Shown here in pieces: positions 8,536-19,828 of a stretch of DNA of 64,000 nucleotides. A model generated the notes under the pieces. That model had not been told where the DNA came from. It worked only from the letters and a program-made list of their open reading frames with translations, and did no database searches. A program made the position numbers and the translations under genes. The stretch is from NCBI RefSeq assembly GCF_028748145.1, contig NZ_CP118181.1, forward strand, positions 1,054,211 to 1,118,210, in the 5' to 3' direction. How positions within the stretch are numbered: the stretch's first letter is position 1; each line of letters starts with the position of its first letter. The DNA is from Entomospira culicis. Lineage in GTDB: Bacteria; Spirochaetota; Spirochaetia; WRBN01.

Positions 8536-8583
8536 ATTCTTCGTGGTATGTCTTGATTTATTTGTCCTTGAGAAATAAAAAAA

Positions 8584-8694
8584 CCTAGCGATAACCTACT
8601 CTCCCACATTACTGCAGTACCATCGGCAAAAGAGGACTTCACTTCCGTGTTCGGGATGGGAACGGGTATTTCCCCTCTTTTCATCATCGCTAGG
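8584..8694 (-). rRNA. rrf: 5S ribosomal RNA
   Basis: Read on the minus strand the 111 bases start and end with the complementary CCTAGCGA and TCGCTAGG. They contain the conserved CCCGTTCCCATCCCGAACACGG block and the GTGGGAGAGTAGGT block of 5S rRNA. The gene follows the 23S gene by 66 bases on the same strand, so both come from one precursor. Confidence 0.95.
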
Positions 8695-8745
8695 ATATTT
8701 ATTACTATTCTTTATATAGTTCTAAATTATCTCCTATCACCAAGA

Positions 8746-8760
8746 GATAAAGAGTAATAT

Positions 8761-8767
<7 letters not shown>
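8746..8767. repeat. 3' half of the 23S rRNA processing stem
   Basis: This 22-base stretch is the inverted partner of 11729-11750 with one mismatch. In the precursor RNA the two would form the long stem that encloses 23S rRNA and is normally cut by RNase III. Confidence 0.8.
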
Positions 8768-11728
<2,961 letters not shown>

Positions 11729-11735
<7 letters not shown>

Positions 11736-12054: not shown

Positions 12055-13098
12055 TTATCCAAAAAATTCTTTTGCAATACTATCCAATTGTACTACAATA
12101 TCAGACCATTCTTTATCTAAATTCAATACTTTAACCCCAATCATGTTGCCATTCATGTTGTACATCTGGCTTGGCGTCTCCATATCCGACAAATGCGCAT
12201 ATAATAATACGCCACTCACATTGTCCACAGTAACTTTATAGTAATTTTTGACATACGCATAAATTTGATACAAATGAAATGAAAGATAGGTAAATTTTTC
12301 GCCATGCGGAGACTTACTCATATTTTTTTGATAAAATTTAGTATCAATAATAAGTGTATGATGTTGATTGCTTAGCATTATATCGGTTTTCATTTGTGGT
12401 AAAAGATGCCCCAGTTCACCTTCTTCTATACACCACCTAATGATATCACTTCTTGGGTTCAAGCATGAATGATGCACATGGTAATACGCTAGAACAAATT
12501 TCTCAAAAATGGCGTGTAACTTATCTTCTGAAATGGGAGCATTTATCTTACGTGTACCACGCTCTTCAGCGAGTAATTGAGTCTCTATGATAAGACGACA
12601 AAAATCCATCAACATCTGATAGCTACTATTATTGCGGTGATAATGCAATGCGTCCCAGCGGATCTGCTTAGGTTCAATATTACTGATATGGTTAAAGTAT
12701 AAGAGAAGTTTTCTTAACTTCTTCTTATACTTCGTATCAGCATCGCTACGTAAGAGAAGAAGCATCGTTGATTTTAGAATTTGATTAAATGGGATATCTT
12801 CAGTGAATTCGTCGTAAGCGCATACCAACCTACCCATAATAAAGGTTTGTTGTTTAATCGACTGCTCCACCCGTATCTGTCCACGTAAACCAGCCAAAGG
12901 CTCAACTTGTGTGACGTAATGCTGTTGTAGCCCACGCTTTACTAACTTTCCTACCATTTTTTCTAAAACCACAGCAAAAAGATCGTCCAAGTGTTCAAAA
13001 TTCTCGCTCGCTAACCATTGAGGATCTTTTATCAGCAATTTATCATAGACATAGGCAAGCATATAATAAATATTTTTTATACGATGATGACTAGCCAT
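12055..13098 (-). CDS. mcrC: McrC subunit of the EVE-McrBC type IV restriction system
   Basis: A 347-residue McrC-family protein. The N-terminal part contains the family-typical block around PFNQILKSTMLLLLRS. The C-terminal part (about residues 240-260) has a PD-(D/E)xK nuclease signature, KTDIMLSN and then LIIDTKFY. In McrBC systems this subunit stimulates and is driven by the McrB GTPase and cleaves DNA carrying modified cytosine or another modified base. The ATG at 13098 lies 5 bases after the mcrB stop, which fits coupled translation; a longer in-frame start at 13137 would overlap mcrB and is less likely. It is the second gene of a two-gene operon. Confidence 0.87.
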   Translation of the reverse strand: MASHHRIKNIYYMLAYVYDKLLIKDPQWLASENFEHLDDLFAVVLEKMVGKLVKRGLQQHYVTQVEPLAGLRGQIRVEQSIKQQTFIMGRLVCAYDEFTEDIPFNQILKSTMLLLLRSDADTKYKKKLRKLLLYFNHISNIEPKQIRWDALHYHRNNSSYQMLMDFCRLIIETQLLAEERGTRKINAPISEDKLHAIFEKFVLAYYHVHHSCLNPRSDIIRWCIEEGELGHLLPQMKTDIMLSNQHHTLIIDTKFYQKNMSKSPHGEKFTYLSFHLYQIYAYVKNYYKVTVDNVSGVLLYAHLSDMETPSQMYNMNGNMIGVKVLNLDKEWSDIVVQLDSIAKEFFG

Positions 13099-13103
13099 TG
13101 CAA

Positions 13104-14513
13104 CTACCCTATCGCCGATTGCAACTCGAGACTCCACTTTTCAACCTTTGTGCTATCGTCAAACCAGTACTCTTTTAATAAAGGAATCAACTCATGCGTA
13201 ACAATGCCTTTAATATCCGGATGAATAGTAGACTTAGGCTTTCCATCTTCATCTAGTAATGTACAAAAATAACTATGTCCAATCTCAAAGCCAGAACCCA
13301 AGGAGTCATCACCACGAATTACTTCGTTAAGAGCTTTTACCACCGCTATCAACTGGTTAAATTTACTATTGCCAACCTCCTGCTGATATGTAATAAAACC
13401 AGCTTTCTCAAAGGCAGGCGTCATATCAAAAAATGCAAACCGTCGACGTAACGCATAATCGATCATCGCTAAACTGCGATCGGCAGTGTTCATCATACCG
13501 ATAATATAAAGATTTTTTGGAATATAAAAATCTTCTTCCTCATCATTATTAGAGTACATCAAAGGCATCGCGTACTCCCTGCCACGCTTATCATCTTCCA
13601 CTAGCATCAACAGCTCGCCAAAGATTTTACTCATGTTACCACGATTAATTTCGTCGATAATAAAAAAGTAATCACTCTCTTTATCTTCTCGCGCTTTTTG
13701 GCAAAATTGATAAAAAGGACCTTCTTTAAGCGAAAAGCCATCACCATCGGGACGATACCCCATCACAAAATCTTCATAACTATAGCTTTGATGAAACTGA
13801 ACCATCTTGATTTGATCATCAGCCTTTTCCCCCATTATCGCATAAGCAAGGCGCTTGGCAGCAAAAGTCTTGCCCACTCCCGGAGCACCTTGCAGAATCA
13901 CGTTCTTTTTACGCTCTAAAAGACTCGTTAGCTCTTTATACTCTGGCTCACTGATAAAAACTTCCTTTAAAAAATCTTTTTTGGTATAGCTCCCCGCCAC
14001 CTCTGGCTCATCCATCAAGAGTTCATCCACCTCAGGTAAAGTATCCTCTATCCCATAAAGTGCCTCTAACTCACGAATACGCTTAGGGTCATCGTATTTT
14101 GTTAGCGTTTTTTGTGGTAAATTTTTAGCATTAGACCCTAAAGTTTTCCCCTCTTGATGCGTCCAACGTACACTACGAGTATGCGCATAATCACGCTCGG
14201 GATCATACACATAATCAGAATCCACAATGCCTCTAGCTAAAACCGTTCGCGTTGCCCCTTTCCCTCCTTTAATATAAACAATATCCCCAATCGCCATCTC
14301 ATGGCTAAATTGCCACAAGGCTAAAGTAGTATTGCCACCACCCGAACCCTCTTTTTCTGCCAATCTATTTACCCTTGCGCGACTCTTCACGTTGCTTAAA
14401 TCACCAACCTCACTCCATCCAATACCTATAAGGTTTTGATTAAAATGATCCTCTCTCATCTCATGCTTTTGCTTCTCACTACCATGCCCCAGAGCCATCA
14501 ACCAATAGTTCAT
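13104..14513 (-). CDS. mcrB: McrB-type AAA+ GTPase with N-terminal EVE-like modified-base reader
   Basis: Residues 1-130 look like an EVE/PUA-type domain (WLMALGHG at the start, then ALWQFSHEMAIGDIVYIKGG and GIVDSDYVYD), a fold used to read modified bases. Residues 190-460 are the McrB AAA+ motor: Walker A GAPGVGKT at 209-216, the Walker B segment FFIIDEINRGNMSKIFGEL, and the MNTADRS signature of McrB GTPases near residue 340. Together with mcrC downstream it forms a type IV restriction system that attacks modified foreign DNA. AGAGGT lies 7 bases before the ATG. Which modification is recognised cannot be read from sequence. Confidence 0.9.
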   Translation of the reverse strand: MNYWLMALGHGSEKQKHEMREDHFNQNLIGIGWSEVGDLSNVKSRARVNRLAEKEGSGGGNTTLALWQFSHEMAIGDIVYIKGGKGATRTVLARGIVDSDYVYDPERDYAHTRSVRWTHQEGKTLGSNAKNLPQKTLTKYDDPKRIRELEALYGIEDTLPEVDELLMDEPEVAGSYTKKDFLKEVFISEPEYKELTSLLERKKNVILQGAPGVGKTFAAKRLAYAIMGEKADDQIKMVQFHQSYSYEDFVMGYRPDGDGFSLKEGPFYQFCQKAREDKESDYFFIIDEINRGNMSKIFGELLMLVEDDKRGREYAMPLMYSNNDEEEDFYIPKNLYIIGMMNTADRSLAMIDYALRRRFAFFDMTPAFEKAGFITYQQEVGNSKFNQLIAVVKALNEVIRGDDSLGSGFEIGHSYFCTLLDEDGKPKSTIHPDIKGIVTHELIPLLKEYWFDDSTKVEKWSLELQSAIG

Positions 14514-14545
14514 TTTCTACCTCTTTATCTTTTTATTCTTATCTT

Positions 14546-14574
14546 ATTTTATCACGACAATTTATTCACGTCAA
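14546..14574 (-). promoter_or_regulatory. Promoter of the mcrBC operon
   Basis: On the minus strand TTGACG, a 17-base spacer and TAAAAT lie about 32 bases before the mcrB start. The oppositely directed promoter of the HNH/AAA+ operon is only 58 bases away, so the two defence-like operons share one control region. Confidence 0.65.
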
Positions 14575-14631
14575 CAAAAAATGAGGGGAGATATCCCACC
14601 GACACAGAGCAGATTTTTTACTTGATGCGAC

Positions 14632-14659
14632 TTGACAAATTGCTAATTAATAGTATAAA
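14632..14659 (+). promoter_or_regulatory. Promoter of the HNH / coiled-coil / AAA+ operon
   Basis: TTGACA, a 16-base spacer and TATAAA lie 24 bases before the first gene of the three-gene operon, with AAGGAAG in the leader. Confidence 0.65.
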
Positions 14660-14683
14660 ATAATCAAAAGGAAGTTACTAAAA

Positions 14684-16453
14684 ATGGCAAATGATAACGA
14701 GAAACTCCCAATGAAGATGAATTTTGAAGAGTCATCAGACGCTGAATTCGATCTCAACACATTTGAAGCAGATTTGGAAGATAAGCTAAAAGCAGACCTC
14801 GCGGGGATGGTCTCTCCAGAAGAGGACTTAAAGAAGATTGGCGACCCATCAAGTTTGGGTGATCCTATTTTAAAACTTATCTTGGAACAGATCAATAATC
14901 AGATTGCCGTAACTGCTGGTGAGGATTTTATTAAAGAGAACGGTGGTCTTAATCTTGATTTACGTAACTCTGCCCACATCCAAACAGCAGAAAATCATAA
15001 CATAGGAGAAGTTCCCAGCCATAATCCAAGCGACTATAAAGAGCGACACGATACATGGGTGGATAAGACTTTTCAAAAAGATAATAAAGGTAATATCATA
15101 CTAAATGCAGACGGTACAAGAAAGTTAAAAGAAGGTTATCGTAGTGGAATTGACGACCCCACAAGACCAAGAGGATCTAAAGCCGATGGTACGGACATGG
15201 ATCATACGATTTCAATAGCAGAGTACCAGAGTAGGGCTGATGTTGATTTATATATGACAAAAACTGCTGAACTAGAAAATACAACTAAGGAAGCTATATC
15301 AAAAGACTTTGTGAACAGCAAAGATAATTTACGTCTTATGGATGCTTCAGCTAATCGCTCTAAAGGCGATAGTACTACTCCTGAATGGATAGCTAGTGGC
15401 GATGCCGATCCCTATATTGAAAGTGGCAAGATTAACGAAGAACAGGCATTAAAGGATCATGAACATGCAGAAAAAACTTTAAAAAAAAGGTACAAAAAGG
15501 GTAAAGATGCTTTTAAAAAAGAGGGTAGAAAATCTCAACGCGAAGAAGCTCTTCGTATGGGAAAAAATACGGCAAGAGCAGTTTTGATGCAACTCCTGCT
15601 CAAACTTCTTAAGAAAATCGTAGGTAAACTAGTTGTATGGCTAAAAACAGCTCAAAAAACTATTCAAACCCTTATCAACTCCATTAAAGAAGCGATTAGT
15701 TCTTTTCTCCATGACTGGAAGCAACACCTATCTAGTAGTGCTGATATAGCGGGTACCACCGTGGCAACTGCAATTTTTGGACCTATCATTCGTGCAATCA
15801 AAAGTGCCTGGAGTATGCTCAAACAAGGATTTCGCTCCTTAAAAGAGGCTATCAATTGGCTTAAAGATCCTGCGAACAAGGGAAAACCTTTTGCAGAGCG
15901 AATGCTCCATGTAGGAAAAATCATCGTGGTAGGACTAACTGGATTTGGCGCCATCAGTTTGGGGCAAACGATTGAAAAGGGCTTGATGGCATTCCCACTC
16001 TTTGCAATCGAAATCCCACTACTAGGGAGTATCGCTAGTATCATTGGTATATTTTTAGGCGCAGTCGTTGCGGGAATCATCGGCGCTATTGCCATGAGCT
16101 TCATTGATAGCCTCCTAGCCAAGAGGCAACAACGTGAATTGACCTCTCAACTCATTGAGCAAGGAAATACGGTATTAAATAGGCAAGAAACCATGCTTAT
16201 GCTTAAAGAGGTAAAACTCGAGCAAAGCAAAGCTACCATCATGCAAGATATCCAAGCACGGCATGAAGAAGCCTCTGAGGCAATGAAAGAATCATTAAAC
16301 ACTCTTTTTACAAATAAAGATCGCATGCAATCCATAAAAGAGGAGATTGAGGCAGAGTATCACACCATCACGTCACCATCCACCAAGAGCGCAGAGGAAG
16401 AGACGCTGGATGTATTATCAGATAAACTCCATAAATTTTCCCAAAGAAGGTAG
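14684..16453 (+). CDS. Membrane-associated protein with variant HNH nuclease motif (first gene of a three-gene operon)
   Basis: I do not recognise a named family for this 589-residue protein. Residues 150-235 carry an HNH-like signature without zinc cysteines: MDHTISIAEY (Asp173, His174), then DNLRLMDASANRSKGD (Asn215, Asn224, Lys227), the spacing seen in DH-N-N nucleases. Residues 260-290 are very basic. Residues 300-350 are amphipathic helices, and about 408-475 contain two or three hydrophobic segments rich in glycine and alanine. The remainder to the C-terminus is a charged coiled coil with a run resembling cytoplasmic linker helices. A nuclease tied to the membrane is the simplest reading. 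The next gene starts 3 bases after the stop, and the third overlaps the second, so the three are one unit. There is no N-terminal signal peptide. A defence role is inference from the neighbours. Confidence 0.65.
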   Translation: MANDNEKLPMKMNFEESSDAEFDLNTFEADLEDKLKADLAGMVSPEEDLKKIGDPSSLGDPILKLILEQINNQIAVTAGEDFIKENGGLNLDLRNSAHIQTAENHNIGEVPSHNPSDYKERHDTWVDKTFQKDNKGNIILNADGTRKLKEGYRSGIDDPTRPRGSKADGTDMDHTISIAEYQSRADVDLYMTKTAELENTTKEAISKDFVNSKDNLRLMDASANRSKGDSTTPEWIASGDADPYIESGKINEEQALKDHEHAEKTLKKRYKKGKDAFKKEGRKSQREEALRMGKNTARAVLMQLLLKLLKKIVGKLVVWLKTAQKTIQTLINSIKEAISSFLHDWKQHLSSSADIAGTTVATAIFGPIIRAIKSAWSMLKQGFRSLKEAINWLKDPANKGKPFAERMLHVGKIIVVGLTGFGAISLGQTIEKGLMAFPLFAIEIPLLGSIASIIGIFLGAVVAGIIGAIAMSFIDSLLAKRQQRELTSQLIEQGNTVLNRQETMLMLKEVKLEQSKATIMQDIQARHEEASEAMKESLNTLFTNKDRMQSIKEEIEAEYHTITSPSTKSAEEETLDVLSDKLHKFSQRR

Positions 16454-16456
16454 GCA

Positions 16457-17596
16457 ATGAATAAATTCGAAATTCAACCCAAAGATTTTAATGATAAAAT
16501 GCAGCAACTCAAAGCATGTGCTGAAAATGTCCCATCAAACATATCTTTTAGAAAAGTTGATACGAGTGCTGGACCTTTAGGTTTGTTTAAGCATAAAGTT
16601 ACTGGAGAAGAACTAAATAGTCTTACACGAGATGTTCAAGATGCTTTTATAGAGGTTAATAAGCGTCAAATTGAATCAGTCAAAAACTTGGAACTTGTTT
16701 ATGACACCATAAATACATTGGACAAAGAATATATTACTGGGATCGTTGGAGCACTTAACGCTGCAGAAGAGGCAAGTAATCAAGCTATAGAGAGTGCAAA
16801 AATTGCCTTGGAAACGAGTAAAAGAGCTCAGGAAAATGGTGAAAAAATTGAAGGAAATAGCCAAAAAATCGCAAAAACGGTGGCCGTTCAAGAACAAACC
16901 ATCGAGGTTTTAATTTCTGGGTTAGATAAACTTGAAGATCGCATCGATAACACCATTACTATGCAAGAAACGACAATTCGGCAACTACATGATGGCATTC
17001 AGGAATATCAACGTAATATTGCCTCAGCTATTAGCCAGCAAGAGGCATTGTCGGCGCAAATACAAGAGAATGTTACTCAATTTATGAACTCTACCACCGC
17101 TATAATTGCTGAGCATCAAGCCGTGATCGATGCGGTTACAAAAGAGAAGAGCGATCTCAAAAATCAAGTAAGTGATATAGCATCATTTCAAAAACAAAGC
17201 CTTGACTTTCTACACGATGGAGTTAAATCTCTTAGAAATGGTCTTGAACAAGAGATTTTACGTATTGGGCGCTTAGGCGAACAATTAAGCAAACAAGAAG
17301 AGCTCACCAAAGAACAATTTTGTGATTTTATGCGACTCTTATCCCAGCAGGAGAGTACCGTGGCTCAGTTAATCGAACAAAAAGCTCAAGAGTTTACCCA
17401 AGAGATGCATCAATATAAAGTTAATTCAGAAAAAGATACAAAACTTATATTAGATAACATGCAACAGAACATTGATACGATCACGCAAAAAAATAGTACA
17501 CTATCGCAATCTATAACACGTGCTTATCAAGTAGCGATAGGCGCTGGGTTGTTAGGGGCTGGATCTATTGTACTTTCAATTTTTGGCATTATTTAA
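16457..17596 (+). CDS. Long coiled-coil protein with C-terminal membrane anchor
   Basis: This 379-residue protein is almost entirely heptad-rich helix from about residue 60 to 345, with many Gln, Glu and Ile residues and recurring segments of the form QEQTIEVLISGLDKLEDRI and QETTIRQLHDGIQEY that may be internal repeats. The last 25 residues (VAIGAGLLGAGSIVLSIFGII) form a single hydrophobic anchor that ends at the C-terminus. No enzymatic motif is visible. It sits between the HNH-like membrane protein and the AAA+ ATPase, and its stop overlaps the ATPase start. It could be a membrane-tethered sensor or scaffold, as long coiled-coil partners are in other multi-gene defence systems; that is inference. 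Confidence 0.65.
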   Translation: MNKFEIQPKDFNDKMQQLKACAENVPSNISFRKVDTSAGPLGLFKHKVTGEELNSLTRDVQDAFIEVNKRQIESVKNLELVYDTINTLDKEYITGIVGALNAAEEASNQAIESAKIALETSKRAQENGEKIEGNSQKIAKTVAVQEQTIEVLISGLDKLEDRIDNTITMQETTIRQLHDGIQEYQRNIASAISQQEALSAQIQENVTQFMNSTTAIIAEHQAVIDAVTKEKSDLKNQVSDIASFQKQSLDFLHDGVKSLRNGLEQEILRIGRLGEQLSKQEELTKEQFCDFMRLLSQQESTVAQLIEQKAQEFTQEMHQYKVNSEKDTKLILDNMQQNIDTITQKNSTLSQSITRAYQVAIGAGLLGAGSIVLSIFGII

Positions 17597-18690
17597 TGGT
17601 GAGTAAGTACACAAAAGATCTTTTAGATTATGCTTCTAAGTTAGATGCTTTAATAGGTGGATATGGAAATGTTACGCAGAAGGCACTTGACATAACGGAA
17701 AATCTTAATCATGATACAACTAATTTATTGCTTAAACAGATCCAAGTCATCGTAAATACTAATAAAACTTCTCCAAAGGAAGTCCTTCTTCTCTGTCAAG
17801 CACTCAAAGAAAGCTTATTTACCTACTATGGCTATACCGAAATCACCCTACGATACTTAAGTATTCAGGAAAATGAAGCCCACCCTTCATTCGAAGAGAT
17901 TATGGAAAAACTCGATAATCTCGTTGGGCTAGATGAGGTGAAGCGAGTCATCCACAACCTTATATCTTATCAAAAAGTACAACAATTACGCCAAGAACAT
18001 GGTTTACCGGCATCAAAAGGAACTCTTCATTTAGCATTTATAGGAAATTCTGGAACTGGAAAAACAAGCGTCGCTCGGATTGTGGGTCATATCTACAAGC
18101 ACCTTGGTTTATTATCAAGAGGACACTTCTTAGAAGTATCGAGAACCGACTTAATTGCAGGATATCAAGGACAGACTGCTCTAAAGGTAAATAAAATCAT
18201 TAAACAAGCATTAGGAGGAGTACTTTTTATTGATGAAGCATACAGCATTACGGAGAATGATCATAGTGATTCTTACGGGCGAGAATGTCTAACAGAACTG
18301 ACAAAGGCACTAGAAGATTATCGTGATGATTTAGTGGTTATCGTAGCGGGATATAAGCAACCTATGGAAAAATTTTTTCAATCTAATCCTGGCTTACGAT
18401 CTCGTTTTAATACCTTTGTGGAATTTATGGATTATACTGCCGATGAGCTAGAAAAAATTTTCATCATGCGGTGTCAAGAGCATCACTACTCCGTAGAAAA
18501 GAAAGCTCTATCCCTTATCAAACAAATACTGATACAAGCCGTGGAGGAGAAAACTGAAGAATTTGCTAATGCAAGGCTAGCCCGTAACCTCTATGATGCA
18601 GTCGTAATGAACCATGCCCATAGAGTATGCAAAGTGGTGCACCCTACTCCTAAAATGTTAACCACTATCACCAAAGATGATTTACCTTAA
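17596..18690 (+). CDS. CbbX/SpoVK-like AAA+ ATPase
   Basis: A 364-residue protein with a helical N-terminus (residues 1-95) and one AAA+ module of the CbbX/CfxQ/SpoVK group: EIMEKLDNLVGLDEVK, Walker A GNSGTGKT at 150-157, the AGYQGQTA loop, Walker B VLFIDEAY ending near 216, and the arginine-finger stretch NPGLRSRFN. Members of this group remodel protein complexes, as CbbX does for Rubisco and EccA in type VII secretion. The start codon overlaps the stop of the coiled-coil gene, which implies fixed stoichiometry. The likely job is to energise or reset the two membrane proteins encoded upstream. The 3' end overlaps the convergent gene by 4 bases. Confidence 0.87.
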   Translation: MVSKYTKDLLDYASKLDALIGGYGNVTQKALDITENLNHDTTNLLLKQIQVIVNTNKTSPKEVLLLCQALKESLFTYYGYTEITLRYLSIQENEAHPSFEEIMEKLDNLVGLDEVKRVIHNLISYQKVQQLRQEHGLPASKGTLHLAFIGNSGTGKTSVARIVGHIYKHLGLLSRGHFLEVSRTDLIAGYQGQTALKVNKIIKQALGGVLFIDEAYSITENDHSDSYGRECLTELTKALEDYRDDLVVIVAGYKQPMEKFFQSNPGLRSRFNTFVEFMDYTADELEKIFIMRCQEHHYSVEKKALSLIKQILIQAVEEKTEEFANARLARNLYDAVVMNHAHRVCKVVHPTPKMLTTITKDDLP

Positions 18691-19766
18691 CGCTTAGGCT
18701 CGCGCTCCACTACCTCTGCTTTAACTTTTTTATAGATTGCATTTACCGCCAAAAGCTCCTGTTGGCTTCTCCCTTTGGAGTTATTATCTTCCAGCCAATT
18801 TAATGCAAGTGCAACTGTTTTATCTAATTTTTTGAAGTTATTCATATCATTGTTTTCTGTAGCAACTTTATACATATCCTGATATCCTAAAACATATTTC
18901 GCAATAACGCTCATTAAGGGTGGATAAAATATCGTCAAAGTAAGCTCGTCAGCAATAATGAATATAATACGCTCTAGTAGTAGATTACATAAAGTAAAAT
19001 CATCATCGCCTATATACATCCTCATGACAAGTACATCAGCTATTAAATGTCTATTGATTGATTTATCGTCTGACGGGCTATTTAAAATAAGTTTACTTTC
19101 TATATCGTTTGTCAGTTTAGTTAATCTTTCAACTATATCACCATCCCCATATCCGTATCGAAAAAGTTTTTCAAACTCTATACGTGCTTCTCTCCAGTCC
19201 TCTTGTATAGTATCATCAGATGCTGATACAAAACCCTCACGCACAAGGGCTGGTTTCATGTTTTCTAGTACATAATAATAGAACATCGTATCTTTTTCTT
19301 GGTTAATCTCATTCAAGCGATTATTTGCTGATACCACAATATCATCTATTTGAATCTGTGCCTCTTGCTCTATTTTAGTTTTGTACTCTTTTAGTTGCTG
19401 GTCAATGCCTCGCTCTTTTAGCGAGAGGCTGATGCCCATACCAATAGCAACCACCGAGCCAAAGATGCCAAAGAGCGCCATCATGATAGAGACAACCGTT
19501 AAATAGTGATTGTGGCGATCCGTCTCGCTGGCAATAAACTCTCTAAGAGCATCCTCATTTAGCTTCAGTTCCGCCTGCTTATCCACCTCTACGCCATCTA
19601 CCATGTAAGGCACCATTATCGGCTTCTCAAATGTAAGCTTAGTAACATCAACTGGCTTTGGCATAAAGTTAGCAAATACTGGAATGATCCCCATAATAAT
19701 GGCAACGAGAATTATAACAATACCTAACCAATAACCATCATCCCCTTTTTTCTCTTGCGATTCCAT
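18687..19766 (-). CDS. Two-TM membrane protein of unknown function
   Basis: The 359-residue product has two hydrophobic segments, at about residues 12-32 (GIVIILVAIIMGIIPVFA) and 90-112 (VVSIMMALFGIFGSVVAIGMGI), separated by a charged loop of about 60 residues. A short coiled coil and a mostly helical, acidic domain of about 230 residues follow. The ATG at 19766 is chosen because GGAGG lies 4 bases before it; a longer open start at 19799 lacks this. I recognise no family. It converges on the AAA+ ATPase gene with a 4-base overlap and may belong to the same island or be an unrelated neighbour. A perfect 7-bp palindrome overlaps its promoter. Confidence 0.7.
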   Translation of the reverse strand: MESQEKKGDDGYWLGIVIILVAIIMGIIPVFANFMPKPVDVTKLTFEKPIMVPYMVDGVEVDKQAELKLNEDALREFIASETDRHNHYLTVVSIMMALFGIFGSVVAIGMGISLSLKERGIDQQLKEYKTKIEQEAQIQIDDIVVSANNRLNEINQEKDTMFYYYVLENMKPALVREGFVSASDDTIQEDWREARIEFEKLFRYGYGDGDIVERLTKLTNDIESKLILNSPSDDKSINRHLIADVLVMRMYIGDDDFTLCNLLLERIIFIIADELTLTIFYPPLMSVIAKYVLGYQDMYKVATENNDMNNFKKLDKTVALALNWLEDNNSKGRSQQELLAVNAIYKKVKAEVVEREPKR

Positions 19767-19797
19767 AAATCCTCCCACACAATCAACTGCTTTATAC

Positions 19798-19828
19798 ATT
19801 GTATCACGCAGATAGACATGTTGTCTAT
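19798..19828 (-). promoter_or_regulatory. Promoter of the two-TM gene with an overlapping palindrome
   Basis: On the minus strand TAGACA, an 18-base spacer and TACAAT lie about 31 bases before the start at 19766. The -35 box is half of a perfect palindrome, ATAGACA-TGT-TGTCTAT at 19812-19828 on the plus strand, which could be an operator or a chance inverted repeat. Confidence 0.45.

Follow-up and report, generated by a model that had tools for sequence, protein, structure and literature searches.

A conserved three-gene cassette next to mcrBC in Entomospira culicis combines a predicted membrane HNH nuclease with a CbbX/SpoVK-clade ATPase

Organization of the operon and its flanks

The window, a 64,000-nucleotide stretch of the Entomospira culicis genome (contig NZ_CP118181.1), contains three closely packed genes on the forward strand, divergent from a type IV restriction pair. 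Gene 1 (14684–16453), an ORF call of 589 aa, encodes a predicted HNH-type nuclease with a membrane segment and a coiled C-terminal part; gene 2 (16457–17596), likewise an ORF call, encodes a tail-anchored coiled-coil protein of 379 aa; and gene 3 (17596–18690) encodes an AAA+ ATPase, 364 aa long, that belongs to the SpoVK/CbbX/EccA clade. The 3-base gap between genes 1 and 2 and the 1-base overlap between genes 2 and 3 bear out the tight packing described in the initial annotation of this locus. The 170-base control region that it assigned jointly to the operon and the divergent McrBC genes corresponds to positions 14514–14683, between gene 1 and the start of mcrB at 14513 (13104–14513, reverse strand; NCBIfam McrB, 3.1e-99). 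Inside this divergent region, a forward-strand promoter-like site, TTGACA-18-TAAAAT (14632–14661), matches the consensus at 11 of 12 positions and, as a consensus match only, agrees with the promoter proposed upstream of the operon, while a second promoter-like site (10/12) faces McrB. The window contains a single TTGACA-N16-TATAAA motif, where 0.06 would be expected. The neighbouring pair is completed by mcrC (12055–13137, reverse strand; NCBIfam McrC, 2.3e-95). It had been labelled EVE-McrBC; the McrBC part of this label stood, but the EVE part was not confirmed, as Pfam EVE gave no match at the McrB N-terminus at E ≤ 1. This N-terminus matches PADLOC PDC-S02 models.

On its far side, mcrC adjoins a 23S and 5S rRNA pair (8583–11735, reverse strand). 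No 16S rRNA was found between 11735 and 19900, which places the island on the 5' side of the 23S gene. A reverse-strand gene at 18687–19799 is convergent with gene 3 and shares 4 bases with it. It encodes a protein of 370 aa, with two strongly hydrophobic segments, for which Pfam, PADLOC, NCBIfam-type and PHROG searches returned weak family matches only and which may belong to the same island. Synteny with the sole same-family genome, which is highly diverged, stops at around 19906 in an empty-site comparison.

Features of the three gene products

The HNH-like core of gene 1 spans residues 157–228 (15152–15367, forward strand) and is defined by D157, D173-H174, S177, E180, N215-L216, N224 and K227. 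In an alignment of 54 homologues, the most distant of which share 17–20% identity with the window protein, D157, D173, H174, S177, E180, N215, L216 and N224 are invariant, K227 is kept in 51 and residues flanking the core also vary; the residues of the putative HNH metal site (D173, H174, N215 and N224) are thus found in 54/54. The HNH-like D-H...N-L...N-R-S-K signature noted at the outset is therefore upheld by conservation, with HNH family matches that all lie below their curated cut-offs. With the single protein as query, Pfam gave weak HNH matches, including GH-E (E=0.033), whose cut-off of 25 bits was reached neither by full-length gene 1 (15.3 bits) nor by the excised domain (20.6 bits). 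When the HNH region was excised from 49 family members, the Pfam families matched most often were HNH_4 (11 members), GH-E (10) and GmrSD_C (3), with a best value of 5.5e-4. A PHROG family of phage endonuclease VII matches full-length gene 1. Together, these sequence comparisons make gene 1 a probable HNH nuclease.

A beta-beta-alpha metal fold had been predicted for residues 150–235. In the AlphaFold2 model, a strand at 170–174 ends in D173-H174, and a strand at 216–220 followed by a helix at 221–227 surrounds N215-L216 and N224-K227, with pLDDT of around 80–87 around the HNH residues and a mean of 68 for the whole model. The strand-strand-helix order is as expected and the model is compatible with a beta-beta-alpha core plus an insert, but this falls short of proof, because the model is weak overall and Foldseek retrieved no solved HNH structure from the PDB, only chance helical matches. 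Profiles of the HNH region and of the whole protein likewise found no solved relative; matches of these profiles to VP4 (E ≥ 0.12) were discarded as noise.

Downstream of the core, gene 1 has a glycine-rich hydrophobic segment at residues 433–480 (15980–16123, forward strand) that is predicted, from hydropathy of up to 2.61 and from conservation, to form a membrane hairpin; the hydrophobic stretch is conserved across the family. The C-terminal tail of gene 1 carries the motif RHEEASEAMKESLNTLF (16259–16309, forward strand), which is common to an extra small gene present between genes 1 and 2 in about 14 loci (among them L008, L014, L021, L022, L027, L031, L032, L037, L040, L042, L047 and L060). 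This small gene encodes a single membrane segment and, after it, a copy of the tail motif of gene 1. RHxxA is found in 24/37 gene 1 tails and in 13/13 of the small proteins, and never in residues 1–430 of gene 1. In L031, L032 and L047 it has been lost from the gene 1 tail and is kept in the small protein, and it is also missing from some gene 1 tails at loci that lack the small gene (for example, L045, L046 and L049).

Gene 2 is almost all helix, with a single hydrophobic segment at its C-terminus (residues 357–379), in accordance with its first description as mostly coiled coil with a C-terminal anchor. Its conserved head comprises around residues 1–110. With two exceptions, its readable relatives have such a head of some 110 residues, a coiled coil of variable length and, mostly, a C-terminal hydrophobic segment. 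Their lengths range from 178 to 1579 aa, the longest, around four times the usual size, being encoded in a Prevotellaceae locus (L025, 11709–16448). Matches of gene 2 to Mediator 21, SMC and ZorA were rejected as coiled-coil artefacts. Two spirochaete loci (L019, 11678–12562; L045, 11668–12972) keep genes 1 and 3 but have, in the place of gene 2, a gene for an unrelated membrane protein whose long tail is rich in Ser, Thr and Glu. This suggests that the functional core consists of genes 1 and 3 and that the middle protein is exchangeable.

Gene 3 had been described as a complete CbbX/SpoVK ATPase. It aligns with solved CbbX over the AAA+ and lid regions, and Tyr190 (codon at 18163–18165, forward strand) is aligned with the CbbX pore-loop tyrosine 114 in structure 3syk. 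Across 21 homologues, the Walker A and Walker B motifs, Y190 and R270 do not vary, apart from one Walker A glycine in one row. The Walker motifs, the pore tyrosine and the lid thus stand, but the protein is neither SpoVK nor CbbX proper, because both scores are below the curated equivalog cut-offs (SpoVK, 2.8e-77, 259.3 bits against 422.95; CbbX, 6.8e-67, 225.7 bits against 459.25), and we regard it as a member of the clade only. It also matches EccA (1.9e-63, and structure 9lur), again below the curated cut-off. What sets gene 3 apart from CbbX, SpoVK and EccA, with which it has the whole AAA+ and lid region, Walker motifs and pore tyrosine in common, is its own N-terminal domain of around 95 aa (residues 1–95), which is specific to the cassette. 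In 18 cassette genomes, the cassette copies of gene 3 match over nearly the full length at 47–59% identity, whereas gene 3-like copies outside the cassette match only from around residue 80–100, at 35–44% identity. In the SpoVK/CbbX clade, the N-terminal domain is described as variable and as a possible recruiter of the substrate (PMC10659427). Gene 3 has a single AAA+ domain, and Pfam gave no VWA match in the operon. No Rubisco genes were noted beside gene 3, nor were sporulation or type VII genes.

Spread and genomic context of the cassette

Relatives of gene 1 were collected from a survey of the same phylum, from Lactococcus plasmids and from a pattern scan that covered 84,980 genomes, one per species. 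The scan returned 57 gene 1 loci, and strong matches were present in 4 of 296 same-phylum genomes, the genome studied here included. Co-occurrence was assessed in 35 non-redundant loci of the main branch with at least 2.5 kb of downstream sequence, by inspecting the next five genes: gene 3 lies downstream of gene 1 in all 35, and gene 2 in 33. The co-occurrence of the three families that had been predicted is thus borne out, and the three genes are a conserved cassette, not a coincidence. Its hosts belong to the Bacillota, Bacteroidota and Spirochaetota, which are interleaved in the gene 1 tree; with the caveats of the tree tool, Spirochaetota need at least three changes on the starred branches. 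Horizontal mobility of the cassette is the best reading of its distribution.

A housekeeping function in the membrane or envelope, served by a SpoVK-like chaperone, is difficult to reconcile with such patchy occurrence and such mixing of phyla. SpoVK is a sporulation chaperone and some neighbours of the cassette are ordinary metabolic genes, as this explanation would have it; however, several host Bacilli have a separate SpoVK-like gene besides the cassette, and we consider the explanation, already disfavoured, to be most improbable.

Two copies of the cassette are on Lactococcus plasmids, where one adjoins type I restriction genes, and many other copies are on long contigs of chromosomal appearance. 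Complete copies include one with the extra small gene, on the Lactococcus lactis plasmid NZ_CP065734, and one in Calidifontibacillus. The plasmid copies, together with the integrase neighbours described below and a sister family carried on many Klebsiella and other plasmids, would fit a toxin–antitoxin or plasmid-stabilizing unit, in which gene 1 is a self-directed nuclease toxin restrained by genes 2 and 3 and the whole maintains the mobile element. The many chromosome-like copies speak against such a unit, as do three large conserved proteins, which would be unusual for one, and a context rich in defence genes, although toxin–antitoxin and defence roles overlap; we judge it quite unlikely.

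One Lactococcus copy is found near bacteriocin genes which, with the match of gene 3 to EccA, raises the alternative of an exported antibacterial toxin cassette where gene 3 acts like EccA of type VII secretion. We hold this to be very unlikely: secretion or LXG/WXG genes were neither annotated in the two annotated plasmid neighbourhoods nor seen among the top neighbour families, there is no dedicated immunity gene, and the nuclease core is N-terminal and conserved and not a variable C-terminal toxin tip.

The 126 genes sampled around cassettes matched 187 PADLOC families at a threshold of 1e-10. A matched control, 124 genes taken at hand-chosen positions in 20 regions of these genomes far from the cassette, matched 32. 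Such counts overstate the number of independent genes, since a single Gabija gene hits many models. The 32 control families are mostly general enzymes, and neither Gabija nor WYL is among the 25 of them that were listed. Among the neighbours, PADLOC identified WYL regulators (up to 9 genes), GajA (2) and GajB (2), and Pfam identified 6 integrases, 2 GmrSD and 2 Fic genes. Gabija directly adjoins the cassette upstream in Polaribacter (L030) and downstream in Jeotgalibacillus (L043), and BLAST clustering placed probable further Gabija homologues at genes +8 and +9 of L021. With Gabija, GmrSD, WYL regulators, integrases and plasmids around it, the cassette does not lie in a housekeeping context, and its gene neighbours suggest an anti-phage system.

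Relation to other nuclease families and named systems

Gene 1 is a full-length distant homologue of the corresponding protein of PDC-M40, itself a prediction only, with the HNH residues and the membrane region common to both. It matches PADLOC PDC-M40B (PDLC04630) at 9.2e-12, and its T. bryantii homologue does so at 1.6e-18, matches that are weak and partial relative to those of a sister branch. This sister branch makes up 15 of the 57 loci (L054–L059 and L061–L069), and the three members tested match PDC-M40B at 1e-36 to 1e-47. Neither a CbbX-type ATPase nor gene 2 was seen in the 15 loci; in most of them the partners are a small cysteine protein of the YkgJ type and a membrane protein rich in glycine, the latter matching PDC-M09A in the three cases tested, and these YkgJ-like and PDC-M09A-like partners are absent from the window-type cassette. 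Kinship of gene 2 with the PDC-M09A-like family was rejected (profile probability 0.3%). Sister operons are common on plasmids of Klebsiella (many), Escherichia, Vibrio, Clostridioides and Acetobacter; further examples (L111, L112, L114 and L115) combine the glycine-rich membrane protein, the gene 1 homologue and the YkgJ cysteine protein. WYL genes occur in two of the four sister plasmid regions read, and WYL or TerB is sometimes present. The sister annotations of 'chemotaxis protein' for the glycine-rich membrane protein and of 'cobalamin adenosyltransferase' or 'ATPase' for the gene 1 homologue look wrong, and we found no name for the sister system. As sister loci swap the ATPase and gene 2 for other partners, the gene 1 nuclease family is broader than the window cassette, which is a distinct variant of it, and since the sister family lacks the ATPase, the latter is not needed by every gene 1 relative.

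Phages carry members of this family as well. Foldseek against viral models retrieved one real relative of gene 1, a jumbo-phage protein misnamed cobalamin adenosyltransferase, which was confirmed by sequence with a sister-branch query; a search of the phage collection with gene 1 itself gave no match at E ≤ 1e-3. In the Aeromonas jumbo phage LAh10 (L113, 3949–6545), the gene 1 homologue follows a 'chemotaxis protein' gene, as in the sister plasmid operons, and phages D3, D6 and D9 also carry a homologue. Phages themselves may use, or have captured, the gene 1 module.

The initial annotation could match the cassette to no named system. None of this composition was found in PADLOC or in the literature searched, which excluded preprints, and the PADLOC matches of genes 2 and 3 reflect no more than the general similarity among AAA+ and coiled-coil proteins; the claim needs amending in that PADLOC lists a distant gene 1 relative as the candidate PDC-M40B. 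The same literature yielded nothing on PDC-M40 or on CbbX in an anti-phage role, and a single mention of SpoVK in defence, in a different system (CoCoNuT). Some Zorya types pair long coiled-coil membrane proteins with an HNH protein. Gene 2, however, matches ZorA at chance level only (0.11), the three genes include no MotA/MotB-like motor, and PADLOC gave no significant ZorA or ZorB match in the operon, which supports its separation from Zorya.

The type III-A CoCoNuT extension contains a SpoVK-family ATPase and a glycine-zipper protein (PMC11090510), and it resembles the cassette in being a defence operon that places an ATPase of the SpoVK clade next to a protein whose hydrophobic segment is rich in glycine. 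It differs in its CoCoNuT core genes, its CDC48-like tandem ATPase with LRR and its inactivated PD-(D/E)xK partner, which lies between duplicated VWA genes; none of these was seen in the window operon, although McrBC is adjacent. In its way of working, the cassette may be compared with SNIPE, a membrane-bound nuclease that cuts phage DNA during injection (PMC13190303): both would place a membrane-anchored nuclease in the cytosol, and location could separate self from non-self. SNIPE, in contrast, is one protein with GIY-YIG and DUF4041, neither of which gave a Pfam match in gene 1, whereas the window system would use an HNH nuclease, three proteins and an ATPase; no homology between the two was found.

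Proposed working of the cassette

We propose that this operon serves in defence against phages or other mobile DNA, as a cassette that moves horizontally and in which the ATPase switches a membrane-tethered HNH nuclease, a reading to which we give about even chances of being right. Gene 1 would provide the effector, a membrane-tethered HNH nuclease; gene 2, a tail-anchored coiled coil, probably holds or senses at the membrane; and gene 3 would be a hexameric AAA+ remodeller that docks through its own N-terminal domain. CbbX threads the C-terminus of the Rubisco large subunit into its pore (PMC5437159), and because of this parallel the shared RHxxA tail is a candidate handle for the gene 3 ATPase. 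By analogy with the Rubisco tail, gene 3 would pull the C-terminal tail of gene 1, which we predict to be cytosolic, into its pore and thereby switch the membrane nuclease complex, most likely on, where foreign DNA enters, with phage as the presumed trigger. Gene 1 would then cut foreign DNA, perhaps, like SNIPE (PMC13190303), as it enters. Several observations weigh against the proposal: HNH matches below their cut-offs with no solved HNH structure retrieved, gene 1 tails that lack the motif, the exchange of gene 2 in L019 and L045, and a sister family that does without the ATPase.

The direction of the switch could also be the opposite; the initial annotation suggested that the ATPase keeps the nuclease inactive or releases it. 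In the same defence system, the ATPase might restrain the nuclease, or disassemble or recycle the gene 1/gene 2 complex, so that infection stops the ATPase and host DNA is attacked too, as in abortive infection. AAA+ remodellers can act in either direction, the defence context would be identical and the small gene, where present, could supply a decoy of the tail; set against this, the characterized clade members CbbX (PMC5437159) and SpoVK, which acts on MurG (PMC10659427), are activators of their clients. We find this version unlikely and, as both clade members studied are activators, lean to activation. Restraint by the ATPase and plasmid maintenance are the strongest rivals of the proposed activating switch. 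In its most specific form, this proposal holds that a CbbX-type activase has been recruited to immunity, where it pulls the tail of the HNH nuclease and, in some relatives, that of the small membrane protein that copies it, and so switches the nuclease on at the point of DNA entry; so detailed a version is, as a whole, unlikely.

CbbX and SpoVK are each known for activating one particular enzyme. If the proposal is true, a threading switch similar to that of the Rubisco activase would control a nuclease effector, and precise residues are on offer for testing it (H174, Y190 and the RHxxA tail). As the gene 1 family exists both with and without the ATPase, the role of the latter is open to comparison. 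The cassette would then extend the CbbX/SpoVK clade to immunity and represent a second design of membrane-nuclease defence besides SNIPE.
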